Under the pieces are notes generated by a model. It was not told the origin of the DNA. It did not search any database and worked only from the letters and a program-made list of their open reading frames with translations. From assembly GCA_020354665.1 (NCBI GenBank), contig CP070653.1, forward strand, positions 3,070,249-3,109,410: a DNA stretch of 39,162 nucleotides, given 5' to 3'. Source of the stretch: Burkholderiales bacterium. Its GTDB lineage: Bacteria > Pseudomonadota > Gammaproteobacteria > Burkholderiales > Burkholderiaceae_C. Position numbers and translations under genes: made by a program. Positions 2,851 through 20,709 of this stretch are shown one piece after another. Position 1 is the first letter of the stretch. Every line of letters starts with the position of its first letter.

Positions 2851-3996
2851 TCAGGACTCCTCCACCCGTTGCGGCGGATAGGTGTCCCAGCCCAGGCATC
2901 CCGGGCACTGCCAGAAGTACTGCTGCGCCTCGAACCCGCAGGCCGCGCACCGGTAGCGCTGCAACGGTTTGGCAGCAACCGCAACGGCCCGCCGGATCAA
3001 TTCGATCTCGGCAGGTGACAGCGGCGCGGGACGGTCCAGCAGCGCCAGCGCATTCGACAGACTGGGCTGCTGCCTGACCATTTCCGTAATCCGTTGCCGC
3101 TGCACGCTCGCGTCGGCATCCAGCCGCCCAATCGCTTCGAGGAGGTCTGGCGAGGGGTGCTGCGCCAGCAGCGGACGCAACAGCGCTAGCGCATGCGCCT
3201 GCCGATCGCAGGCCTTCGCACTGTGCGCGTAGTCGTTTGCGACGAGGCCGAACACGCCGGCGTGCACGGGCAACAGCAAGCTCCAGTGCGCGAGCGCCTG
3301 TTCATGCTGTCCGGCGGCCGCTGCACGGTGCCCCAGCAGCACGAGTGGCCGCGGTGCCTGTGGTGCGGCCGCTCGTGCCGATTCGAGCGCTGCGGCGGCA
3401 CCGTCGGGCTGGTGCCGTATGTCCGCCTCGAGCGCGATCTCGCACCAGTGGTGCGCCAGCCGCGTGGCGAATGACCCCGCCCCACTCTTCTCGAGCTTGG
3501 TGGCCACGTCGATCGCACGATGCCAGTCGTGCGAGCGCTCGTACAGGCCGAGCAGCGCCAGTCTCGCCTCGGTCGCGTAGGCGGTTCCCTCGAGTGCTTG
3601 ATAGGCCTGCTCTGCCCGATCGAACAGGCCGGCCTTCATGAAGTCCTGTGCGAGCGCGTGCTGTGCCCGCTCGTGGTCGGCGCGTGGCAGGTCGGCGCGC
3701 TTGAGCAGATGTTCGTGCAACCGCACCGCACGCTGGTATTCGCCCCGGCGACGGAACAGGTTCCCCAGAGCGAAGTGCAGCTCGGCCGTGTCCGGGTCCT
3801 GCTGTACTGCCTCGATGAACGCATCGATGGCCTTGTCCGGTTGCTCGTTGAGCAGAAAGTTGAGACCTCTGAAGTAGGCCTTCGGCGATTCGCGCTGCTC
3901 CCTGCGCCACTGGCGCACGTCGAAGCGCGATGCCAGCCAGCCCAGCGCGAAGGCCAACGGCAGGCCCCACAGCAGCCACTGCAAGTCGAAGTCCAT
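2851..3996 (-). CDS. lapB: LapB (YciM), LPS assembly protein with TPR repeats
   Basis: A 381-residue inner-membrane-anchored TPR protein. It begins MDFDLQWLLWGLPLAFALGW, one N-terminal membrane helix, followed by tetratricopeptide-type helices (for example NEQPDKAIDAFIEAVQQDP). It ends with a rubredoxin-like metal site, CAAC then CPGC. This architecture and length match E. coli LapB. In E. coli LapB presents LpxC to FtsH for degradation and so balances LPS against phospholipid synthesis. I chose the ATG at 3994-3996 because it gives the membrane anchor and starts 4 nt after the lapA stop. The longer upstream frame overlaps lapA out of frame and is not real. The lapA-lapB pairing is the standard arrangement and supports the call. 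Confidence 0.93.
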   Translation of the reverse strand: MDFDLQWLLWGLPLAFALGWLASRFDVRQWRREQRESPKAYFRGLNFLLNEQPDKAIDAFIEAVQQDPDTAELHFALGNLFRRRGEYQRAVRLHEHLLKRADLPRADHERAQHALAQDFMKAGLFDRAEQAYQALEGTAYATEARLALLGLYERSHDWHRAIDVATKLEKSGAGSFATRLAHHWCEIALEADIRHQPDGAAAALESARAAAPQAPRPLVLLGHRAAAAGQHEQALAHWSLLLPVHAGVFGLVANDYAHSAKACDRQAHALALLRPLLAQHPSPDLLEAIGRLDADASVQRQRITEMVRQQPSLSNALALLDRPAPLSPAEIELIRRAVAVAAKPLQRYRCAACGFEAQQYFWQCPGCLGWDTYPPQRVEES

Positions 3997-4000
3997 GTAC

Positions 4001-4315
4001 CTAGAGTCCTTCGCGCGGCGGGTGCAACGGCGCGGGCGCAGTGGTCGGCGGCGGTGTTGTCTGTGCGGACGTCGCCGAGGCCGGCCCCGATGCGATGCGG
4101 TCGGCGCTGCGCTGCCGACGCCACACGCCGGGGAGCATCGCCACCATGCCGACCGCGCCGCCGACCGCGAAGGCCGCGAGCAGCACCACGGCCATCGGGG
4201 CGTGCGACTCGTAGCCAAAGAACCACCGCACGGCCGCTTCCTGCTGGTTGTTCAGCGAAAACGCAAACAGCACAAAGAACACGGCCGCTCTGAACAGCCA
4301 GACGAGGATGCGCAT
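4001..4315 (-). CDS. lapA: LapA-domain small inner-membrane protein
   Basis: A 104-residue protein with two hydrophobic segments: MRILVWLFRAAVFFVLFAFS, and then the stretch around MAVVLLAAFAVGGAVGMVAML. Between them is the conserved N-N-Q plus WFFG region of the LapA (DUF1049) family. The C-terminal tail is low-complexity, rich in Pro, Thr and Ala. It starts at the ATG at 4313-4315, with GGAG about 5 nt upstream. In E. coli LapA associates with LapB at the inner membrane. Here its stop lies 4 nt before the lapB start, so the two are almost certainly co-transcribed. The tail is probably poorly ordered. Confidence 0.88.
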   Translation of the reverse strand: MRILVWLFRAAVFFVLFAFSLNNQQEAAVRWFFGYESHAPMAVVLLAAFAVGGAVGMVAMLPGVWRRQRSADRIASGPASATSAQTTPPPTTAPAPLHPPREGL

Positions 4316-4497
4316 GGGGACTCCGTCGCGGGATTCTAGGGTCCGTTGCCGGACGGCCCGCGGAAGTGAACTGCACGCAGTCCGGTGCGGGCGCAGAGCA
4401 GTGAGCGCGTGTGGTGCTGGACGGGCGTGACAACCCCGTGCACGGGGAGGCCGGTCGTGGTGTCCGATCCGCGCGGGGGCTGGAACCTGAACAGGCG

Positions 4498-4821
4498 CTA
4501 ATCAGCCGAAGCGTCGTCAGCCGGTGGCGGCGCGTCCGCCTGCGACGCATCGACCGCCTCGCGCAATGCCTTGCCCGGCTTGAAGTGCGGCACGCGCTTC
4601 TCCGGGATCGTCACCTGCTCTCCGCTGCGCGGATTGCGGCCGATGCGCGGCGGCCGCCGGCTGACGGAGAAGCTGCCGAAGCCGCGGATCTCGATGCGAT
4701 GACCCCGGGCGAGCGCATCGCTCATCGCGTCAACAATCGTCTTGACGGCGAACTCGGCGTCGCGATGGGTCAACTGGCTGAAGCGTTCGGCCAGTCGAGC
4801 CACGAGGTCTGAGCGGGTCAT
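4498..4821 (-). CDS. ihfB: Integration host factor subunit beta
   Basis: A 107-residue HU/IHF-family DNA-bending protein. It begins [17 protein letters not shown]. It contains the IHF/HU signature around [21 protein letters not shown], with the conserved Gly-Phe-Gly-Ser-Phe and the Pro-rich beta-arm that intercalates into the minor groove. The segment [14 protein letters not shown] is typical of the beta subunit. A short acidic tail ([12 protein letters not shown]) extends it past the usual ~94 residues. IhfB pairs with IhfA, which is not in this window, and bends DNA at sigma-54 promoters among other sites, so it could assist the glnA promoter at 21636. It lies directly downstream of rpsA, as in E. 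coli and most proteobacteria. Confidence 0.95.
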
Positions 4822-4920
4822 GGGCTGTTCCGGGGATCAATAGGTAGCGTGCCGAGGTTCCCGCCCCTTCGCGCGGCAAGAGGTCGCGATCCCTCGGCAA
4901 GCCCGCGCGACGCGGCAGCC

Positions 4921-6639
4921 TCATTCCTCCTTTTGCGTGTCGAGCTTGGCGCGCAACAGGGCCCCCAGGCTCGTGGTGCCTGCGCTTTCGCGCTCACTGG
5001 TCTGTGCCAGGCGCTGCATCGCCTCTTGCTGGTCGGCGCTTTCCCTGGCTTTGATCGACAGCTGGATCGAGCGCGTCTTGCGATCGATGTTGACGATCAT
5101 CGCGGAGATCTCGTCGCCCTCCTTGAGCACGTTGCGTGCATCTTCGACGCGGTCGCGGCTGATCTCGGAGGCGCGCAGGTAGCCGGTCACCTCGCCGGTG
5201 AGCTGGATTTCGGCACCGCGGGGATCGACCGACCGGACCTTCCCGGTGACCATGGCGCCCCGGTCATTGATCGCGGTGTAGGTCGCGAACGGGTCGCCTT
5301 CGAGCTGCTTGATGCCCAACGAGATCCGCTCTCGCTCGACGTCGACCGCGAGCACGACCGCGTCGACCTCCTGACCCTTCTTGAAGTTGCGCACCGCGCT
5401 CTCGCCCGGCTCGCTCCAGCTCAGATCCGAAAGGTGCACGAGGCCATCGATCCCGGCGGCGAGTCCGACGAAAACGCCGAAGTCAGTGATCGATTTGACC
5501 GGCCCCTTGACCCGATCGCCGCGCTTGACGTTCTGCGCGAATTCCTCCCAGGGGTTGGGCTTGCACTGCTTCATGCCCAGGCTGATGCGGCGCTTGTCCT
5601 CGTCGATTTCGAGCACCATCACCTCGACTTCCTCGCCCAGCGTGACCACCTTGCTCGGTGCGACGTTCTTGTTGGTCCAGTCCATCTCGGAGACGTGCAC
5701 CAGGCCCTCGATGCCGGGCTCGATCTCGACGAACGCGCCGTAATCGGCGATGTTGGTGACCCTGCCGAACAGGCGCGTGCCTTGTGGGTAGCGGCGAGCC
5801 ACGCCGAGCCAGGGGTCGTCGCCAAGCTGCTTGATGCCCAACGAGACCCGGTTCTTCTCGGCGTCGAACTTCAGCACCTTGGCAGTCAACTCCTGACCCA
5901 CCGTCACGACCTCGCTCGGATGGCGCACCCGCCGCCAGGCCATGTCGGTGATGTGCAGCAGACCGTCGATGCCCCCGAGGTCGACGAAGGCGCCATACTC
6001 GGTGATGTTCTTCACCACACCGTGAACGATTGCTCCCTCGCGCAATGTCTCGAGCAGCTTGGCGCGCTCTTCGCCCATCGAGGCCTCGACCACCGCGCGC
6101 CGGCTCAGCACCACGTTGTTGCGCTTGCGGTCGAGCTTGATGACCTTGAACTCCATCGTCTTGCCTTCGAACGGCGTCAAGTCCTTGACGGGACGCGTGT
6201 CGATCAGCGAGCCGGGCAGGAACGCGCGGATGCCATTGACCAGCACGGTCAGCCCACCCTTGACCTTGCCCGTGACGGTACCGTTGACGAAATCGCCCGA
6301 GTCGAGCGACTTCTCGAGCGCGAGCCACGACGCCAGGCGTTTGGCCTTGTCGCGCGAGAGAATGGTGTCACCGTAGCCGTTCTCGAAGGCATCGATGGCC
6401 ACGGCGACGAAGTCGCCGACGTGCGCTTCGATCTCGCCCTGGTCGTTCCTGAACTCCTCGATCGGCACATAGGCTTCGGACTTCAGGCCGGCGTTGACCA
6501 CCACGAAATTGGGTTCGACGCGCATCACCTCGGCCGAGATCACCTCGCCCGCGCGCAAGTCGCGCTTCCTGAGGCTTTCTTCGAAAAGGGCGGCGAACGA
6601 TTCTCCGCCCGCGGCAGCGGCGGTCTGTACTGGGGTCAT
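4921..6639 (-). CDS. rpsA: 30S ribosomal protein S1
   Basis: A 572-residue protein made of six S1 (OB-fold) RNA-binding repeats. Successive repeats show the hallmark GxVxxxxxxGxxVxL and IHxSxx elements, for example [20 protein letters not shown] and [18 protein letters not shown]. The first two repeats are the divergent ribosome-binding ones and the later four bind mRNA. The length is close to E. coli S1 (557). S1 captures mRNA on the 30S subunit, especially messages with weak Shine-Dalgarno sequences. The start ATG at 6637-6639 has AGGAAG upstream. The cmk-rpsA-ihfB order is the classical one, although cmk is here fused to aroA. The C-terminus is rich in charged residues. Confidence 0.97.
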
Positions 6640-6765: not shown

Positions 6766-8772
6766 TCAGCCGAACGGCCTGCGCTGCTGCCACCAACCCA
6801 ACGCCACCTCGACCGAGGCTTCGATCGAAAGGTCCGAGTTGTCGAGCAACTGCGCATCTTCGGCGGCTTTCAGCGGTGCGACACAGCGGTTCATGTCGCG
6901 CGCATCACGCGCCTCAAGGTCCGCGCGAAGAGCCGCAATGCTAACCGAAAACCCCTTCGAAATCAACTGCTTATGCCTTCGCTCGGCGCGCTTGGCGGCA
7001 CTCGCGGTGAGGAACACCTTGAGCTGCGCGTCGGGGAACACGACAGTGCCCATGTCGCGGCCGTCGGCCACCAGACCGGGCACGCGGCGAAACGACAACT
7101 GCAGTCCATGCAGAGCCTGGCGCACCGACGGCAGCGCCGAGATCTTCGACGCCAGGGCGCCGACGGATTCGCGGCGCAGTAGGTCGGTCACCTCGCTGCC
7201 GTCGAGTTCGATCCGACCGCAGTCGAACTGCAATGCGAGCGAGCCGGCCAGCTGCGCGAGGCGGGTCTCGTCCGCCTCGGCGATGCCACGTTGCAGGGCG
7301 GCGAGCGCGGCGGCGCGGTAGAGGGAACCGGAATCGAGCAGGTGGTAGCCCAGGCGGGCCGCCAGCGCGCTGGCCAGCGTACCCTTGCCCGACGCGGTCG
7401 GGCCGTCGACTGTGATCACCGGAATGTCGCTGCGGTGCGCATCGGCGACGGCAAACAGCGCTTCGAAGTAGTCAGGGTACGTCTTGCCGACACATCGCGG
7501 GTCCAGAATGCGCACCGGCACGCCGGCGAAGGCGGCCAGCGAAAAGCACATCGCGATGCGATGGTCATCGTAGGTGTGTATCGCCGCAGGCCGCGGGTGC
7601 GTCAGGGGTTGCACCTCGATAAAGTCGGGCCCTTCGACCACCGTCGTGCCGAGCTTGCGCAGCTCGGCGGCCATCGCGGCGATGCGGTCGGTCTCCTTGA
7701 CGCGCCAGCTCGCGATGTTGGTGAGCCGGCTCGGTCCGTCGGCGTAAAGCGCCATCACCGCAAGCGTCATCGCCGCGTCGGGTATTGCGTTGCAGTCCAG
7801 CGTGATCGCATGCAACGGCCAGGCGCCCCGCCGCACCTCGAGCGCACCCGGCGTGCCAACCACATCGGCCCCCATCGCCCGTGCCGCGTCGACGAAGCGG
7901 ATGTCGCCCTGGACCGCGTCGAGGCCGATTCCTTCGATTCGTATGCACCGCGAACGATCGGCACCGATCGCGCCGAGCGCAATGAAATACGAGGCCGACG
8001 AGGCGTCGCCCTCGACGTGAATCGTTCCTGGCGAGCGGTACGCGCTGCCGCGCGGGATGACGAACCGTTGCCCGCCCTCGCGGTCAATGTCGATGCCAAA
8101 GCGTGCCAGCAGGTTGAGCGTGATTTCGACGTAAGGCCTGGAGATCAACTCGCCGGCGACTTCGATCGTGATGCTGCGGTCCCGCGCGACCAGCGGCAGC
8201 GCAAGCAGCAGCGCGGTGAGGAACTGGCTCGAGACGTCCCCGCGCACGCGGATCGGGGCGTCCAGCGTGAGTCGTGCACCGCCGTCGCCGGATACCCGCA
8301 GCGGCGGATACCCCTCGCTGCCGAGATAGTCGATCGAACAGCCGAGTGGTCGCAGCGCATCGACGAGGTCGCCGATCGGCCGCTCGTGCATGCGCGGCAG
8401 GCCGGCCAGCTCGAACCGCCCGCCCTGCGTGGTTGCCAGCAAGGCGAGTGCGGCGGTCAACGGACGCATCGCCGTGCCAGCGTTGCCCAGGAACAGCTTC
8501 GCGTCGCGTACCTGCAGCCGACCGTCGATGCCGGTCACCCGCAGCGACCTGCTGTCGCCTTCGACGCCGCAGCCCAGCGCTCGCAGTGCCGTGAGCATGA
8601 CCCGCGTGTCGTCCGAGTCGAGTGCGTCACAGACCTGCGTCGTGCCGCGGCACAGCCCGGCCAGCAGCAGCACCCGGTTGGAGATGCTCTTCGAACCCGG
8701 CAGCCGGACGGTACCCGCGGCGCCAGCGAGCGGCGGGATGTCGAGAAACGGGATGTCGAACACGACAGCCAC
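6766..8772 (-). CDS. aroA-cmk: Bifunctional EPSP synthase / cytidylate kinase
   Basis: A 668-residue fusion. Residues 1 to about 442 are 3-phosphoshikimate 1-carboxyvinyltransferase (AroA): [10 protein letters not shown] near residue 24 with the PEP-binding Lys, [20 protein letters not shown] with the catalytic Asp, and VKETDR with the catalytic Glu. Residues from about 449 are a complete cytidylate kinase, with P-loop [10 protein letters not shown] at 456-465, then DSGSLYR and [13 protein letters not shown]. AroA makes EPSP in the shikimate pathway; Cmk phosphorylates CMP and dCMP. No stop or frameshift separates the domains. The start is the GTG at 8770-8772, 24 nt after the tyrA stop, with no strong ribosome binding site. 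I recall such fusions being annotated in other Burkholderiales, so this is lineage-typical rather than an assembly artefact. Confidence 0.95.
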
Positions 8773-8796
8773 GTCAAGCCGAGCGCGCGGCGGCGG

Positions 8797-9675
8797 TCAT
8801 CGACGCGGCTTGTTCGACGCCATCTTCCAGTTGGCCCGCGCGCCGGATGCCGTGCGGATCAGGTCTTCGAGCGCTTCGGCGTTGCCTGATTTGATGACGT
8901 GCTCGAGCGCGTCGAGGGTGTGCCGGAAGCGCATCGACTGCTTGAGCACCTCCTCGCGATTGCTCATCAGGATATCGCGCCAGACGCCCGGCTCGCTGGC
9001 GGCGATGCGCGTGAAGTCGCGGAAGCCCGGTCCGGCCAGTGACAGGTAGTCCGATCCCGCAGGCTGCTTCGACACCGAGAGGAAGTACGCGAACGCCAGC
9101 AAATGCGGCAGATGGCTTACCGCCGCGAACGCTGCATCATGGTTCTCGGGTGTCATGCGCAGCACCTGTGCGCCGATCGCGGCCCACACATCGGTCGCTT
9201 TCTGTACCAGTTCGGGCGCAGTCTGTGGAAGCGGGGTCAGGATGACCTGGCAGCCCTCGTACAGCGCCGGGTCGGCCTGCCCGATGCCACCCGATTCCTT
9301 GCCGGCGATCGGATGCGCCGGCACGAAACTGGGCGTGCGCTCGCGCAAAGCGCGGCGCGCCGCATCGACGACGTCGCGCTTGGTGCTGCCCACATCCATC
9401 AACAGCACGGGCGGCTCCACCAGGTGCCGGATCGCCTTGAAGATGCCCTCACTGGCAGCCACCGGCACTGCAATCAGCACGATGTCGGAGCCCGACACCG
9501 CGAGCAACGCCGACTCGGCGGCGATATCGATCGCACCGAGCTGTTTGGCCTTCTCGGTGGTCGACGGCGACTTGCTATAGCCCACAACCCGCTTGACGAG
9601 CCCGCTGCGCTTGAGCGCGAGCGCGAACGATCCGCCCATCAGGCCGCAACCGATTACGCCGAGCTGGTTGAACAT
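8797..9675 (-). CDS. tyrA: Prephenate dehydrogenase
   Basis: A 292-residue NAD(P)-dependent prephenate dehydrogenase. The N-terminal Rossmann motif GVIGCGLMGGSFA is followed by MDVGSTKRDVV and PAHPIAGKESGG. The His-containing HPIAG and the later SHLPHLLAF segment are signatures of the TyrA family, which oxidatively decarboxylates prephenate to 4-hydroxyphenylpyruvate for tyrosine synthesis. I chose the ATG at 9673-9675 (MFNQLGVIG) because the longer frame upstream runs through an intergenic repeat. No ACT domain follows. The gene sits between pheA and the aroA-cmk fusion, so three aromatic pathway genes are contiguous. hisC, which often lies between pheA and tyrA in related genomes, is absent. 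Confidence 0.95.
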   Translation of the reverse strand: MFNQLGVIGCGLMGGSFALALKRSGLVKRVVGYSKSPSTTEKAKQLGAIDIAAESALLAVSGSDIVLIAVPVAASEGIFKAIRHLVEPPVLLMDVGSTKRDVVDAARRALRERTPSFVPAHPIAGKESGGIGQADPALYEGCQVILTPLPQTAPELVQKATDVWAAIGAQVLRMTPENHDAAFAAVSHLPHLLAFAYFLSVSKQPAGSDYLSLAGPGFRDFTRIAASEPGVWRDILMSNREEVLKQSMRFRHTLDALEHVIKSGNAEALEDLIRTASGARANWKMASNKPRR

Positions 9676-9679
9676 CAGC

Positions 9680-9781
9680 GCCCGCCGGGCCGCCCCAAGG
9701 GCGCTGAAGCCCCCACGGGGGGCAGCCAACGATGTGAGCGTGGGGGCCGCATGACCTGCCCGCCGGGCCGCCCCAAGGGCG
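9680..9781. repeat. Diverged tandem repeat with two identical 24-nt cores upstream of tyrA
   Basis: An identical 24-nt core starting GCCCGCCGGGCC occurs at 9680-9703 and 9758-9781, a period of 78 nt. The sequence after each core is recognisably related but diverged (both contain a GGGGxGCAGC block followed by AACGA or AAACGA). Each core contains a 5-bp hairpin CGCCC-CAA-GGGCG, and the first unit also has the 6-bp hairpin GCCCCC-ACG-GGGGGC. The element fills most of the 163-bp pheA-tyrA gap. I believe similar GC-rich palindromic units are scattered between genes in other Burkholderiales, but I cannot check that here. It could affect RNA processing or tyrA expression. Confidence 0.7.
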
Positions 9782-9838
9782 TTGGAAGACTGCTCGGGGC
9801 GCAGCAAACGAAGTCTGAATGTGTAGCCATCGTGCCGC

Positions 9839-10936
9839 TCAGTGTGTATCGAGGGGGTAGGCGCCCAGCAGCTTGAAGAAGGCACACACCTCACGCAGCT
9901 CGTTCAACGCTTGCGCCACCTCCGCTTGATCCGGGTGCCCTGCGACATCGATGTAGAAGTAGTACTCCCACTGGCCCGAGCGCGCCGGCCGCGACTCGAA
10001 TCGCGTCATCGACACGCCATGAGCCTTGAGTGGCACCAGCATGTCGTGCACCGCACCCGGCCGGTTGGGCACCGAGACGACCAGGCTGGTGCAGTCATGG
10101 CCCGAAGCCCGCGGGGCGGGGTGGCGCTCGGGGTGCGTGACGATCGCAAAGCGCGTCCGGTTGTGCGCATCGTCCTGGATGGCGGGCGCGACGATTTGCA
10201 GGCCGAACTCGCTGGCTGCGCGCTCGCTCGCGATGGCTGCCAGCTTTGCATCCATCGACGCCAACCGGGCACCCTCCGCGTTGCTGAACACCGCTCGGCG
10301 CTCGACACCCGGCAGATGGTCGCTCAACCACTGGTGGCATTGCGCCAGCGCCTGAGGATGGGCGCACACCGCGTCGATTCCCGCCACCGTGCTCTCGCGT
10401 CGCATCAGGTTGTGCCGCACCGCAAGGCTGGTTTCGCCCACGATGACGAGGGGCGTGGTCAGGAACAGGTCGAGTGATCGGGCAACCACGCCTTCGGTCG
10501 AGTTCTCTACCGGCACCACGCCGAAGTCTGCCGAGCTCGCGGCGACGCTGCGGAACACCTCATCGATGCTGACGCACGGAACGCGCTCGATCGACGAGCC
10601 AAAGAAACCCAGCGCAGCGAGCTCGCTGAACGTGCCTGCCGGCCCCAGATAGGCCACGCGCGTCGCCGCCTCAAGCGAGCGGCACGCCGACATGATCTCG
10701 CGCCATATCGGTGCGACGCTCTCGGTCTTGAGCGGACCGGAGTTGGCGGCCTTCAAGTCGTCGATCACCTGGGCTTCGCGTTCGGGTCGAAAGACCGCCG
10801 AGCCTTCGCGTCTTTTCAATTCGCCGATTTCCCGGGCCAGCTCCGCGCGCCGGTTGAGCAGGGTGAGCAGCTCGCGGTCGACGGTATCGATCTGCGCGCG
10901 CAGTGACCGAAGCGCCGGATCCGTCGGGGAAGTCAT
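9839..10936 (-). CDS. pheA: Bifunctional chorismate mutase / prephenate dehydratase (P-protein)
   Basis: A 365-residue three-domain protein. Residues 1 to about 90 are an AroQ-type chorismate mutase ([22 protein letters not shown]). The middle is prephenate dehydratase, starting [16 protein letters not shown] and including [11 protein letters not shown] and HNRTRFAIV with the catalytic Thr. The C-terminus is an ACT regulatory domain ([17 protein letters not shown], then [17 protein letters not shown]) that in relatives senses phenylalanine. The enzyme makes phenylpyruvate from chorismate. Its ATG at 10934-10936 overlaps the gyrA stop by the ATGA arrangement, so translation is coupled to gyrA. 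serC, usually found between gyrA and pheA in related genomes, is missing here. Confidence 0.96.
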
Positions 10937-16761: not shown

Positions 16762-17577
16762 ATGGCAATGGACGTGATCGACTACGACATTCGGGGTGCG
16801 GAGATGCAGTTTGTCGAGATCGAGCTCGATCCGGGTGAGGCGGCGGTCGGCGAAGCCGGCAGCATGATGTTCATGGACCCGTCGATTGCGATGGACACGG
16901 TGTTCGGCGACGGGTCGGGCAATTCGAACGGAAGGCTGTTCGGCAAGTTGCTCAGTGCCGGCAAACGGCTCGTCACCGGCGAGTCGCTATTCACCACCGT
17001 CTACACGAATCAGGGCCCGGTCAAGCAGCGCGTGGCGTTTGCCGCGCCGTACCCCGGCAAGATCCTGCCCATGGATCTGAAGACGTTGGGCGGCACACTG
17101 ATCTGCCAGAAGGATGCGTTCCTCTGCGCGGCGCGCGGCGTGACACTCGGCATCCACTTCCAGCAGAAGTTGTCGGCGGGCTTCTTCGGCGGCGAGGGCT
17201 TCATCATGCAGAGGCTCGACGGCAACGGGGTCGCTTTCGTGCACGCTGGCGGCACCGTGGTCAAGCGCGAGTTGCACGCAGGCCAGTCACTGATGGTCGA
17301 CACCGGCTGTGTGGTCGGCTTCACGCGCGAAGTCGCCTTCGAGGTCCAGTACGTCGGCAAGGTCAAGACGGCGTTGTTCGGGGGCGAAGGCTTGTTCTTC
17401 GCCAAGCTCAGCGGCCCCGGTACGGTCTGGCTGCAGAGCCTGCCGTTTTCGCGACTGGCGAGCCGGGTGTTTGCCGCGGCGCCGCAGCGCGGGGGCTCGC
17501 GTGAAGAAGGCTCCGTGCTCGGCGGTTTCGGTGCCGGCGGCCTGCTCGGCGGCGTGCTTGGCGGCGACGACGAGTAG
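16762..17577 (+). CDS. AIM24 / TIGR00266-family protein
   Basis: A 271-residue protein of the AIM24 family, a widespread beta-helix-like fold of unclear function in bacteria. Typical features are the N-terminal [20 protein letters not shown], the central [21 protein letters not shown], and [22 protein letters not shown]. The C-terminus is Gly-rich ([15 protein letters not shown]), as in many members. There is no signal peptide. The mitochondrial relative Aim24 affects inner-membrane organisation, but no role is established for the bacterial proteins. It starts at the ATG at 16762, with AAGGAA upstream, and ends 6 nt before the creatininase-family gene, so the two may be co-transcribed. Confidence 0.88.
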
Positions 17578-17583
17578 CCCGCG

Positions 17584-18420
17584 ATGCGCCGACGCCGCTT
17601 CACGGCAGCACTGGCCGCACTCTCGCTGACGGCCGTCGACATGTCCCTGGCTGCGGCGTCGACGATGTCGCAGCCCGAGGTTCGTTCGCGGCTCGAGGAC
17701 ATGACGTGGAGCGAACTGCGCCAGCGCATCGATGGCGGCGCGACCACCGTGCTGGTGCCGATCGGCGGTACCGAGCAGAACGGGCCGCACATGGTGCTGG
17801 GCAAGCACAACGTGCGCGTGCGCGAACTGGCCGCGCGCATTGCGCAGCAGCTGGGCACCGTGGTCGTCGCCCCGGTCATCGCCTACGTTCCGGAGGGCGC
17901 GATCGACCCGCCGACCGCACACATGCGGTATCCCGGCACGATCAGCATCACCGATGCCGCATTCGAGGCGGTTCTGGAGTCGGCCGCACGCAGTTTCCGG
18001 CAGCATGGATTTCGCGACATCGTCTTCCTCGGCGACCACGGTGGCTACCAGAAGCAACAGGAGCGCGTCGCGGCACGCCTGAGCCGGCAATGGGCCGCTG
18101 CCACGCCTGGCTGCCGGGTCCATGCGCTGACTGAGTACTATCGCGCCACGCAGACCGAGGTCGTCGAGATGATGAAGTCGCGCGGTTTTCGCGCCGAAGA
18201 AATCGGCAGTCACGCGGGCTTGGCCGACACCGCGATGGCGATGGCGGTCGATCCGTCGCTGGTGCGCGCCGACCAACTCGCAGCCGCCGCGCAGGGCGGC
18301 GACCATGCCGGCGTCTACGGGGATCCGCGACGCGCAACGGCTGAGCTGGGTCAGGCCGCGATCGACCGCATCGTCGAGCTATCGGTCGCGGCGATTCGCG
18401 AGCGCACGCGTCGCCGCTGA
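17584..18420 (+). CDS. Exported creatininase-family protein
   Basis: A 278-residue member of the creatininase/MftE amidohydrolase family. It has an N-terminal export signal: RRRRF followed by a hydrophobic stretch ending AAAS, which could be Sec or Tat. The core motifs are PIGGTEQNGPHMVLGKHN (Glu64, His69, His75), LGDHGGYQ (Asp151, His152) and SHAGLADTAM (His210, Asp215). In classical creatininase the first motif is E-x-H with a later Asp. Here Asn66 replaces the His and His75 stands near the Asp position, so the metal site may differ. Family members hydrolyse cyclic amides or cleave peptides (as MftE does). The substrate is unknown. A secreted YVTN beta-propeller follows 33 bp later. Confidence 0.85.
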   Translation: MRRRRFTAALAALSLTAVDMSLAAASTMSQPEVRSRLEDMTWSELRQRIDGGATTVLVPIGGTEQNGPHMVLGKHNVRVRELAARIAQQLGTVVVAPVIAYVPEGAIDPPTAHMRYPGTISITDAAFEAVLESAARSFRQHGFRDIVFLGDHGGYQKQQERVAARLSRQWAAATPGCRVHALTEYYRATQTEVVEMMKSRGFRAEEIGSHAGLADTAMAMAVDPSLVRADQLAAAAQGGDHAGVYGDPRRATAELGQAAIDRIVELSVAAIRERTRRR

Positions 18421-18453
18421 CTCGCGGCGGTGAGCCATTGGAAAGAACGAGGC

Positions 18454-19773
18454 ATGCAATTGGTCAGGGACATCGCGGGCATCGGACTGGGGGTCGTTGC
18501 GGCCTTGGTCTCGTCGTGGGCCGGCGCCCAGGTATCGGCCAACGAACGATCCGGCAGTGCCGCATCGGCCGCAGTTGTCCGCGCGCCATCACCGCCGGAA
18601 GCGAAGATCGAAACGGTTCCTGGCATGCCGCCGGTATCGGACCCGCGCAACCTCTACAGCGAGATCGCCGTCGGAAGGATCAGCGCCGCGGTGCGCGAAG
18701 ATCTCGAACGGATTTATGTTCCGAACCTGCGCTCAGGTGACGTCTACGTGATCGACCCGAGCGCGATGAAGGTCGTCGACCGCTTCAGGGTCGGCATCAG
18801 CCCGCAGCACATCGTGCCGTCGTGGGACCTGCGAACGCTCTGGGTGACGAACAACGCCGAGGGGCGCACCGACGGTTCGCTGACGCCGATCGACCCGCGC
18901 ACCGGCAAGCCGGGCAAAGCCATCCCGGTGGACGACCCCTACAACATGTACTTCACGCCCGACGGCAAATCGGCGATCGTCGTGGCCGAGGCGCAAAAGC
19001 GTCTCGACTTCCGCGACCCGCGGACGATGGCACTGCAGTACTCGATCGACGTGCCGGGTTGCCCGGGTGTCAATCACGCGGACTTCTCGATCGACGGACG
19101 CTTCGCGATCTTCACCTGCGAATTCTCTGGTGCCCTCGTGAAGATCGATCTGGCTGGCCGCAGGGTGCTGGGCTACCTGCAGCTGCAGATGCCCGCAACC
19201 CGCTTCAAGGAGGTGCCGGGAGGACCGCGCGCACAAGCGGGCCAGGCCTGGGAGCCGGGCGAGACCGAGATCTGCACGGTCAAGAAGGGCATGCCGCAGG
19301 ACATCCGCAGCTCGCCCGACGGCAAGCGCTTCTATGTCGCCGACATGCATGCCGACGGCGTGCACATCGTCGAGGGCGATGCTTTCAGGCAGGTCGGATT
19401 CATTCCCACCGGCCTCGGCGCGCACGGTCTGTATCCGAGCCGCGATGGCAAGAGACTGTATGTCGCCAGCCGCGGATCGCACAAGGTACACGGTCCGAAG
19501 CTCGGCAACGGTGGCGTGGCCGTGATCGACTTCGCCACCGAGAAGGTCGTCGCACGCTGGCCCGTGCCGGGTGGGGGCAGCCCCGACATGGGCAACGTCA
19601 GCGCAGACGGCCGATGGCTGTGGCTGGCCGGGCGCTATGACGACGTCGTCTACCGCTTCGACACGACCAGCGGCGAGGTGCGACAGATCAAGGTCGGCGC
19701 CGAGCCGCACGGGCTGACCGTGTGGCCGCAGCCGGGGCGCTATTCGCTCGGCCACACCGGCAACCTGCGTTGA
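18454..19773 (+). CDS. Exported YVTN/YncE-type beta-propeller protein
   Basis: A 439-residue protein with a Sec signal (MQLVRDIAGIGLGVVAALVS to WAGAQ) and repeated propeller blades: RIYVPNLRSGDVYVIDP, TLWVTNNAEG, KSAIVVAEAQKRL, RFYVADMHADGVHIVEG, RLYVASRGSHKVHG. The closing blades read GNVSADGRWLWLAGRYDDVVYRFD, cut here for length. Such seven-bladed proteins act as periplasmic binding or electron-transfer partners in other systems. No catalytic residues or haem CxxCH motif are seen. I chose the ATG at 18454 over the GTG at 18430 because it gives a compact signal peptide. It is tandem with the exported creatininase homologue, and both probably act in the periplasm. Confidence 0.85.
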   Translation: MQLVRDIAGIGLGVVAALVSSWAGAQVSANERSGSAASAAVVRAPSPPEAKIETVPGMPPVSDPRNLYSEIAVGRISAAVREDLERIYVPNLRSGDVYVIDPSAMKVVDRFRVGISPQHIVPSWDLRTLWVTNNAEGRTDGSLTPIDPRTGKPGKAIPVDDPYNMYFTPDGKSAIVVAEAQKRLDFRDPRTMALQYSIDVPGCPGVNHADFSIDGRFAIFTCEFSGALVKIDLAGRRVLGYLQLQMPATRFKEVPGGPRAQAGQAWEPGETEICTVKKGMPQDIRSSPDGKRFYVADMHADGVHIVEGDAFRQVGFIPTGLGAHGLYPSRDGKRLYVASRGSHKVHGPKLGNGGVAVIDFATEKVVARWPVPGGGSPDMGNVSADGRWLWLAGRYDDVVYRFDTTSGEVRQIKVGAEPHGLTVWPQPGRYSLGHTGNLR

Positions 19774-19812: not shown

Positions 19813-20709
19813 ATGAAGGATCTGCTCGACGCAGCCTGGCGTGCGGTGGCTTACTGCCTGCACCCGCGCGTGATCTGGTTGTCCATGCTGCCGTTGCTGC
19901 TGGCGGCGGGGTTGACCGTAGGGCTCGGCTATTTCTACTGGGAAGGCGCGGTCGAAGGCGTGCGCGCGACGCTCGAGCAGTGGGCACTGCTCGGCACGGT
20001 GCTCGACGCGCTCGACTCGATCGGCGCGCCCGGCCTGCGCGTCGTGCTCGCACCGCTGATCGTTGTCGCGCTGGCCGTGCCGGTGATCGTGGTGGTGTCG
20101 TTGTTGCTGGTGGCGGTGCTGACGACGCCATCGATCGTCAAACTGGTGGCCGCGCGGCGCTTTCCCGGGCTCGAGCGCCGCAAGGGCGCATCGGTATGGG
20201 CTTCGATGCTGTGGTCGCTGGGGTGGACGGTGCTCGCGCTGCTTGCCCTGCTCGTCACGTTGCCGCTGTGGCTCATTCCGCCGCTGGTGCTGGTGTTGCC
20301 GCCATTGATCTGGGGCTGGCTGGCCTACCGCGTGATCAGCTTCGACGTGCTCGCGGACCATGCGAGCGCGGCCGAGCGGGGCCAGCTGCTGCGCGAATAC
20401 CGCTGGCCGTTGCTGGGCATTGGCATCGCGTCGGGCTATCTGAGCGCGGCGCCTTCACTGCTGTGGGCAATGGGCGCAGCGACGCTGATCTTCGCACCGC
20501 TGCTCGTCGTGGTGTCGCTGTGGCTGTACACCCTCATCTTCGCGTTTGCCGTGCTGTGGTTTGCGCACTATGCGCTGGCCGCTCTCGCGACGCTGCGCCG
20601 ACGCGCGTCGGCCGACGCCATCGCCGCTGTGGATGCCGCGGCCGGGCAACCCGACATGGAGGGCGGTTCGCACAGGCCTCGTGCGCTCCCGCCGAGCCCG
20701 ACCGCCTGA
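19813..20709 (+). CDS. EI24/CysZ-like multi-pass membrane protein
   Basis: A 298-residue inner-membrane protein. The N-terminal pattern, an amphipathic helix followed by HPRVIWLSMLPLLLAAGL, and the spacing of four to six hydrophobic helices resemble the EI24 domain family, which includes the sulfate permease CysZ. Other helices lie around VVLAPLIVVALAVPVIVVVS, WTVLALLALLVTLPLWLIPP and SLWLYTLIFAFAVLWFAHYA. A short polar tail closes the protein. The family is widespread in Burkholderiales next to a molybdopterin-binding-domain gene, which follows here after 13 nt. Whether it transports sulfate is not shown by the sequence, and no cys genes are nearby. Confidence 0.8.
   Translation: MKDLLDAAWRAVAYCLHPRVIWLSMLPLLLAAGLTVGLGYFYWEGAVEGVRATLEQWALLGTVLDALDSIGAPGLRVVLAPLIVVALAVPVIVVVSLLLVAVLTTPSIVKLVAARRFPGLERRKGASVWASMLWSLGWTVLALLALLVTLPLWLIPPLVLVLPPLIWGWLAYRVISFDVLADHASAAERGQLLREYRWPLLGIGIASGYLSAAPSLLWAMGAATLIFAPLLVVVSLWLYTLIFAFAVLWFAHYALAALATLRRRASADAIAAVDAAAGQPDMEGGSHRPRALPPSPTA

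Follow-up and report, generated by a model that had tools for sequence, protein, structure and literature searches.

Enzymes of the creatininase fold whose function is established (creatinine, mycofactocin and inosose hydrolysis) are, to our knowledge, cytoplasmic and keep a dinuclear metal site. Full-text searches of an open-access library returned no creatininase paired with a beta-propeller, under this term, YncE or propeller, and 'creatininase family' came together with periplasmic in one paper only, that on mycofactocin. Here we describe a gene pair from a Burkholderiales bacterium (NCBI GenBank assembly GCA_020354665.1, contig CP070653.1, positions 3,070,249 to 3,109,410 of the forward strand; this whole stretch of 39,162 nucleotides is called the window), which encodes a creatininase-fold protein with a rebuilt pocket and a beta-propeller. 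An earlier note on this DNA had already pointed out the two open reading frames, and both were confirmed on the plus strand; with the ATG at 18454 as the propeller start, 33 bp lie between them:

17584..18420, plus strand: creatininase-fold protein of the GKHN type, 278 amino acids, probably exported (PF02633 match, AlphaFold2 model and structure matches)
18454..19773, plus strand: seven-bladed YVTN beta-propeller, 439 amino acids, probably exported, the partner protein (PF21783, model and fold matches)

We regard the partnership of the two proteins as secure and have little doubt about it. It was followed in the best 80 of 354 related loci (contigs from one genome per species, ordered by how closely they match the query; most record titles point to betaproteobacteria, others to Rokuibacteriota, Alphaproteobacteria, Rhizobium or Mesorhizobium), in a phylum sample of 299 genomes and in an order sample of 270 genomes, the two samples sharing some genomes and being uncorrected for kinship. 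The pair is present in 78 of the 80 loci, in 77 of them less than 500 bp apart and on one strand (median 137). As for the other two, the contig of L060 ends 12 bp past the creatininase match, and L055 has no propeller of the P0002 type, as we call the propeller family of the window pair, nearby. Clustering of all open reading frames of at least 90 amino acids from 81 loci gave only two families present in most loci (79 and 76), followed by a family with 29. The upstream neighbour in the window, an AIM24-like gene (16762-17577, 6 bp away), recurs in 12 of the 80 loci, and an EI24-like gene, as found in the window directly downstream (EI24/CysZ-like, 19813-20709, 39 bp away), is located downstream in 18 of them. 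The two genes stay paired in loci with differing surroundings, so that the refuting condition set by the earlier note, a lack of conserved linkage in other genomes, does not hold. Within the phylum sample eight of the 299 genomes contain a creatininase of at least 50% identity, all eight with an adjacent propeller. The order sample has the creatininase (at E 1e-40) in 10 genomes, the propeller in 8 and both in 7 (hypergeometric p 5e-11, likewise uncorrected for kinship). In four of these seven the genes are adjacent; G418, G543 and G483 have the creatininase only and G307 has the propeller only.

The first protein shares its fold with creatininase (PF02633; 1j2t, 3a6k). It matches PF02633 over the full length with 161.5 bits (cut-off 31.3), being the only such match in its genome at E 0.001, and the AlphaFold2 model, with a mean predicted local distance difference test score (pLDDT) of 92.7, shows the creatininase fold with the creatininases 3a6k and 1q3k as top structure matches (Z 25.3, 232 residues aligned, root mean square deviation 2.8, 22% identity). 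Nevertheless, it stays outside the creatininase equivalog TIGR04448, reaching 94 bits against a cut-off of 235, and it differs from creatininase in its signal-like N-terminus, in its propeller partner and in the pocket. Three sequence features are listed here:

17773..17811, plus strand: remodelled metal motif EQNGPHMVLGKHN, residues 64-76, with E64, H75 and N76 invariant in alignment A1
18034..18039, plus strand: D151-H152, with H152 in the classical His120 column and following the presence of the propeller partner
18211..18213, plus strand: H210, the invariant His of the HAGLADT motif (alignment A1)

The classical creatininase ligands are Glu34, His36, Asp45, His120 and Glu122; the PDB titles among the structure matches name Glu122 only. 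Aligned to solved creatininase, the window protein keeps the Glu34 and His120 columns as E64 and H152 and has Asn66 in place of His36, His75 in place of Asp45 and Gly154 in place of Glu122. The altered motif reported in the earlier note is thus real and family-wide, but the His described there as shifted stands exactly in the Asp45 column, followed by the equally invariant Asn76. Alignment A1 has 59 rows, namely the window protein and 58 of 91 candidates (thinning at 82% identity left 68, of which ten were removed by hand; L006, with an internal stop after extension, had been dropped from the creatininase list before any counts). All 59 rows, including five with Ser or Asn at column 152, agree in E64, H75, N76, H113, Y186 and H210. 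At position 66 there is N in 53 rows, S in five and K in one, and the Glu122 column holds Gly in 52, Ser in six and Asp in one. Twenty classical paralogues, hand-picked from the weaker creatininase matches in the phylum sample, all keep the classical residues at both places, H in column 66 and D in column 75; one of them, L115, is without the Glu34 and His120 residues. Judged from these columns, the metal site is not of the ordinary creatininase type, and because the pocket residues are invariant throughout the clade we regard the family as a stable subfamily with a rebuilt pocket and not as a decayed copy.

One pocket residue follows the propeller. His152 is found in 85 of 85 rows linked to a P0002-type propeller, in two of two rows linked to a second propeller type (prop2, described below) and in four of 11 unlinked rows. 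Three of these four (L140, L142 and L144) come from the genomes G499, G325 and G464, which have the propeller elsewhere; the fourth, L060, is cut by the contig end, and neither propeller was found in its genome. Seven rows (L096-L100, L148 and L149) possess Ser or Asn at column 152, and they belong to six genomes without a detected P0002-type propeller, meaning no match at E 1e-20 in the phylum sample or at E 1e-40 in the order sample. A tree of 103 sequences places all propeller-linked ones in a clade of 90 (85 P0002-linked, two prop2-linked and three unlinked), which has a low support of 0.28, while a clade of 87 inside it reaches 0.98 and the neighbouring clade of eight unlinked sequences 0.8. 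His at column 152 is probably ancestral, because five classical paralogues on the tree have it as well. Although its place on the tree is with the Ser/Asn clade, L144 carries His152, and its genome holds a propeller. In the genomes covered here, His152 is retained where a propeller partner exists; we take this tie as a strong hint and not as statistics, since the independent losses of His may number only one or two.

The second protein belongs to the YNCE-like family PF21783 (62.4 bits, cut-off 27.1). It narrowly passes the cut-off of PF02239 (Cytochrom_D1) with 28.7 against 25.5 bits over residues 293-395 only, which we read as repeat similarity that need not imply heme binding. With 85.2 bits it stays far below the cut-off of 287.3 for the PQQ-associated propeller subfamily TIGR03866; among the NCBIfam models the propeller passes the generic YVTN repeat model only, and neither of the two proteins reaches an equivalog or subfamily cut-off. 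TIGR03866 and YncE (PF21783) are its nearest annotated sequence families. The model (mean pLDDT 90.9) has seven blades, and its fold matches include 1l0q (Z 35.1), the 6-phosphogluconolactonase 6nau (Z 32.4), PpgL 6igb (Z 30.6), the BtuG-type 8bai (Z 29.5), nitrous oxide reductases (Z 27.1-29.6) and thiocyanate dehydrogenases (Z 27.2-27.7), although all 975 aligned chains scored Z of at least 8 and such matches prove no function. What sets the propeller apart is a ring of residues at the starts of its inner strands, all invariant in alignment A2 (44 sequences, the window protein and 43 of 82, obtained by thinning only):

18808..18810, plus strand: ring residue H119, inner strand 1
18943..18945, plus strand: ring residue N164, inner strand 2
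19075..19077, plus strand: ring residue H208, inner strand 3
19300..19302, plus strand: ring residue D283, inner strand 4
19423..19425, plus strand: ring residue H324, inner strand 5
19585..19587, plus strand: ring residue D378, inner strand 6
19708..19710, plus strand: ring residue H419, inner strand 7 (DSSP starts this strand three residues later)
19753..19755, plus strand: H434, invariant as well but in the C-terminal tail and outside the ring

The window propeller has nine His, of which five (H119, H208, H324, H419 and H434) are invariant across the 44 sequences; four of these five are located at the ring. An invariant H, D or N stands at the start of seven of seven inner strands compared to one of 22 other strands (p 5e-6), the inner strands being assigned by hand with the DSSP string and the pattern of repeats as guides, and strand 7 being counted from three residues before its assigned start; with strand 7 scored strictly p is 1e-4. 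The majority consensus of TIGR03866, made from 16 sequences (two of them short, with 241 and 244 amino acids) and without any column at 95%, has no His at any of the ring places when matched by eye but residues such as R, E, V, W or G, and 1l0q is without the ring set where the structure alignment spans these places. Read from the alignment, four His and two Asp, all invariant and all at inner-strand starts, form a metal-ligand-like set.

In place and kind this ring is reminiscent of the copper tunnels of two known propeller enzymes. Thiocyanate dehydrogenase is a seven-bladed propeller like that of the window, with a structure match of Z 27.7 over 319 residues that reaches residues 438-439, and it fills many of the Foldseek ranks 2-32, with a seven-bladed fold that is shared by many families. 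According to its published description, the active site consists of K103, H135, H136, Q156, H206, E288, D314, H381, H437, H482, H528, D529 and R544, thirteen residues with seven His and two Asp among them (PMC6504805), and a second source places three coppers in the central tunnel (PMC9456337). The order of the invariant residues in our propeller resembles this list, a likeness of order and not a residue-by-residue equivalence. However, the sequences share only 12-15% identity, and thiocyanate dehydrogenase is absent from the sequence matches of the propeller even at E 10. In nitrous oxide reductase the CuZ ligands are H132, H133, H181, H323, H378, H429 and H490 at the propeller hub, these seven His being supplied by six of the seven blades (PMC11573801). 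In contrast, the propeller described here has four ring His and not seven, which together with H434 of the tail are all its invariant His. Its match to L-NosZ (NF052460) has 68.2 bits against a cut-off of 700, and no CuA domain is seen, as the Pfam matches are limited to propeller families. Profile comparison by hhalign gave a probability of 12% for nitrous oxide reductase and of 95% for L-NosZ, where the match was confined to a single stretch of repeats and out of register; since no useful alignment was obtained, we claim no residue equivalence to nitrous oxide reductase. L-NosZ itself was found over its cut-off (L128, 786 bits) in one of 249 phylum-sample genomes, and the weaker matches in 43 other genomes of this sample are probably ordinary nitrous oxide reductases.

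We propose that the pair is an exported module of two proteins in which a rebuilt creatininase pocket and a tunnel site in the propeller serve a shared compound, and we give this proposal an about even chance. The creatininase-fold protein would use the kept Glu64 and His152, with Asn66, His75-Asn76, Asp151 and Gly154 around them, in a pocket that is probably mononuclear or differently populated with metal, and outside the inner membrane it would most likely hydrolyse an amide-type or cyclic-amide bond, with a peptide or a small molecule as its substrate. In the propeller, the central tunnel would most likely hold either a metal or a polar substrate by the seven invariant His, Asp and Asn, which may all face one cavity, and the propeller would act on, or deliver, the compound that its partner processes. 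It is plausible that the propeller has a redox or metal role; a metal site in it falls, in our estimate, slightly short of an even chance, and copper redox chemistry is a long shot. It could also be possible, even if we consider it unlikely, that the propeller is a new tunnel metal-cluster enzyme, probably with copper held by the four His and two Asp, and forms a two-enzyme periplasmic pathway for a nitrogen compound together with a creatininase-fold hydrolase, the last classical metal-ligand His of which (His152) is retained alongside a propeller partner and exchanged in those lineages found without one.

Several observations weigh against such a module. Near relatives are over-represented among the 80 loci, because these were ranked by similarity to the query. 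The linkage is not universal: in L046 the two genes are 7.9 kb apart, and the pair is unlinked in the genome of L055 as well as in G499 (455 kb apart on one contig) and in G325 and G464 (different contigs). G307, G055 and G171 have the propeller without a close creatininase homologue, so that it can apparently work alone, and G483 has a creatininase with His152 together with prop2 and no match to the P0002-type propeller.

A further objection concerns the ring, because its polar residues could serve to bind an organic ligand in the absence of any metal. The propeller would then be a metal-free binding or scaffold protein, with the creatininase-like enzyme as the only catalyst, and fold matches such as the lactonase-type 6nau and 6igb and the cobalamin-binding BtuG-type 8bai are in line with this. 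We find this explanation doubtful but worth keeping in mind, as the invariant four His and two Asp are metal-ligand-like and are missing in the TIGR03866 consensus and, where aligned, in 1l0q. The opposite assignment, in which the creatininase-like protein has lost its metal and, as a pseudoenzyme, serves the propeller as structural partner or chaperone, would explain why of the five classical ligands only the Glu34 and His120 columns are left, and in the seven Ser/Asn homologues Glu34 alone; the invariance of E64, H75, N76, H113, Y186 and H210 over 59 rows argues instead for a working pocket, and we judge the pseudoenzyme improbable. That the genes are neighbours through shared ancestry only, without a functional tie, is very improbable: the moderate correlation of the similarities of both proteins across the loci (Spearman 0.59, 3025 pairs) could be obtained from common descent alone, but the differing flanks in many lineages and the tracking of the propeller by His152 speak for a tie, and the unlinked co-occurrence largely refutes this explanation. 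Least of all, with a next to negligible chance, do we expect the maturation of a ribosomal peptide by an MftE-like peptidase, with the propeller as carrier of the product, a relation raised in the earlier note and rejected here, because despite membership of the same superfamily the distant homology to the mycofactocin peptidase MftE (TIGR03964) amounts to 82.8 bits against an equivalog cut-off of 172, the mycofactocin radical-SAM family has only three weak matches in the genome (94.5% complete by listing; the best 34 bits against a cut-off of 265), no small open reading frame of 20-95 amino acids within about 1 kb of the pair is common to most loci (widest cluster 11 of 79), and the protein looks exported.

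The exported, two-protein module that we prefer would place both proteins outside the inner membrane, as the N-terminus of the creatininase-fold protein suggests for this partner:

17584..17652, plus strand: hydrophobic stretch at the N-terminus that is likely a signal peptide and carries RRRRF close to its beginning (from the sequence; low model confidence)

Residues 1-30 of the model have a pLDDT of 58-66 with a helix at 6-23. The RRRRF segment, which had been taken for a possible Tat signal, is present, but Tat export is rejected as a family trait, since among the 79 scorable N-termini (of 81, the window included; start codons are uncertain) just 14 contain RR-x-hydrophobic and none contains S/T-RR-x-F-[LVIM].

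A second propeller accompanies some creatininases of the family. In L147 (G483) the creatininase gene is followed, at a distance of about 27 bp, by a gene for an NHL/PQQ_2-type propeller (prop2, 3960-5105); L055 has a 60% homologue of it (8943-9881) just upstream. Among the 270 genomes of the order sample, the sample searched for it and one that includes two of the six Ser/Asn genomes, prop2 was found at E 1e-30 in two, and these two, G483 and G499, also possess the creatininase (p 0.001). L147 and L055 stand apart on the tree, each among P0002-linked sequences. A reading of prop2 as a swapped-in partner was nevertheless rejected, and it is better called an additional partner, because G499 and the genome of L055 hold the creatininase, the P0002-type propeller and prop2 together, and it is possibly a third component.

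Other neighbourhoods are more varied. In L094 (8870-9031) and L095 (8376-8526), compared with L101, the flanks and the propeller are kept and the creatininase is missing at the site. In the propeller-only genome of L146 (3429-13249) the propeller gene is located 15 bp from a gene for a TlpA-like thioredoxin, in a cluster with a multicopper oxidase, CtaG-like and DUF411 proteins; judged from the sequences only, the cluster also encodes a Met-rich protein and a P-type ATPase for heavy metals. Such a context is as expected if the propeller needs copper; we treat it as a lead and not as family evidence, because it stands beside the propeller in this one genome only. When six proteins of this cluster were compared with the other neighbourhood loci, the ATPase had a 36% match in L058, TlpA had weak ones in L149, L075 and L049, and no others were found. 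In L140 a Met- and His-rich LTXXQ (Spy/CpxP-like) protein (8641-9396) is encoded directly upstream of the unlinked creatininase copy. In L096 and L144 the creatininase relatives adjoin FA_hydroxylase genes (sterol desaturase superfamily), and in L097 (8166-10001) a single open reading frame of 612 amino acids fuses FA_hydroxylase and creatininase domains. For L098-L100, L148 and L149 the nearby genes are of solute-binding, peptidase or CoA-transferase/lyase-like types, again named from their sequences. As the propeller-less relatives sit beside such varied genes, the creatininase fold seems to be used with several partners. Two records of metagenome-assembled genomes titled Bordetella parapertussis (L002 and L045) carry the pair among environmental Burkholderiales relatives, and their titles may be wrong.

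In summary, the observation of the earlier note holds and is stronger than it was put there, and its interpretation holds in part. The pair represents a large, probably exported creatininase subfamily in which the metal site is rebuilt and a propeller is a steady companion, which suggests a two-protein system that has not been described before. If the ring of the propeller indeed holds copper, it would be an addition to a very small set of propeller copper enzymes.

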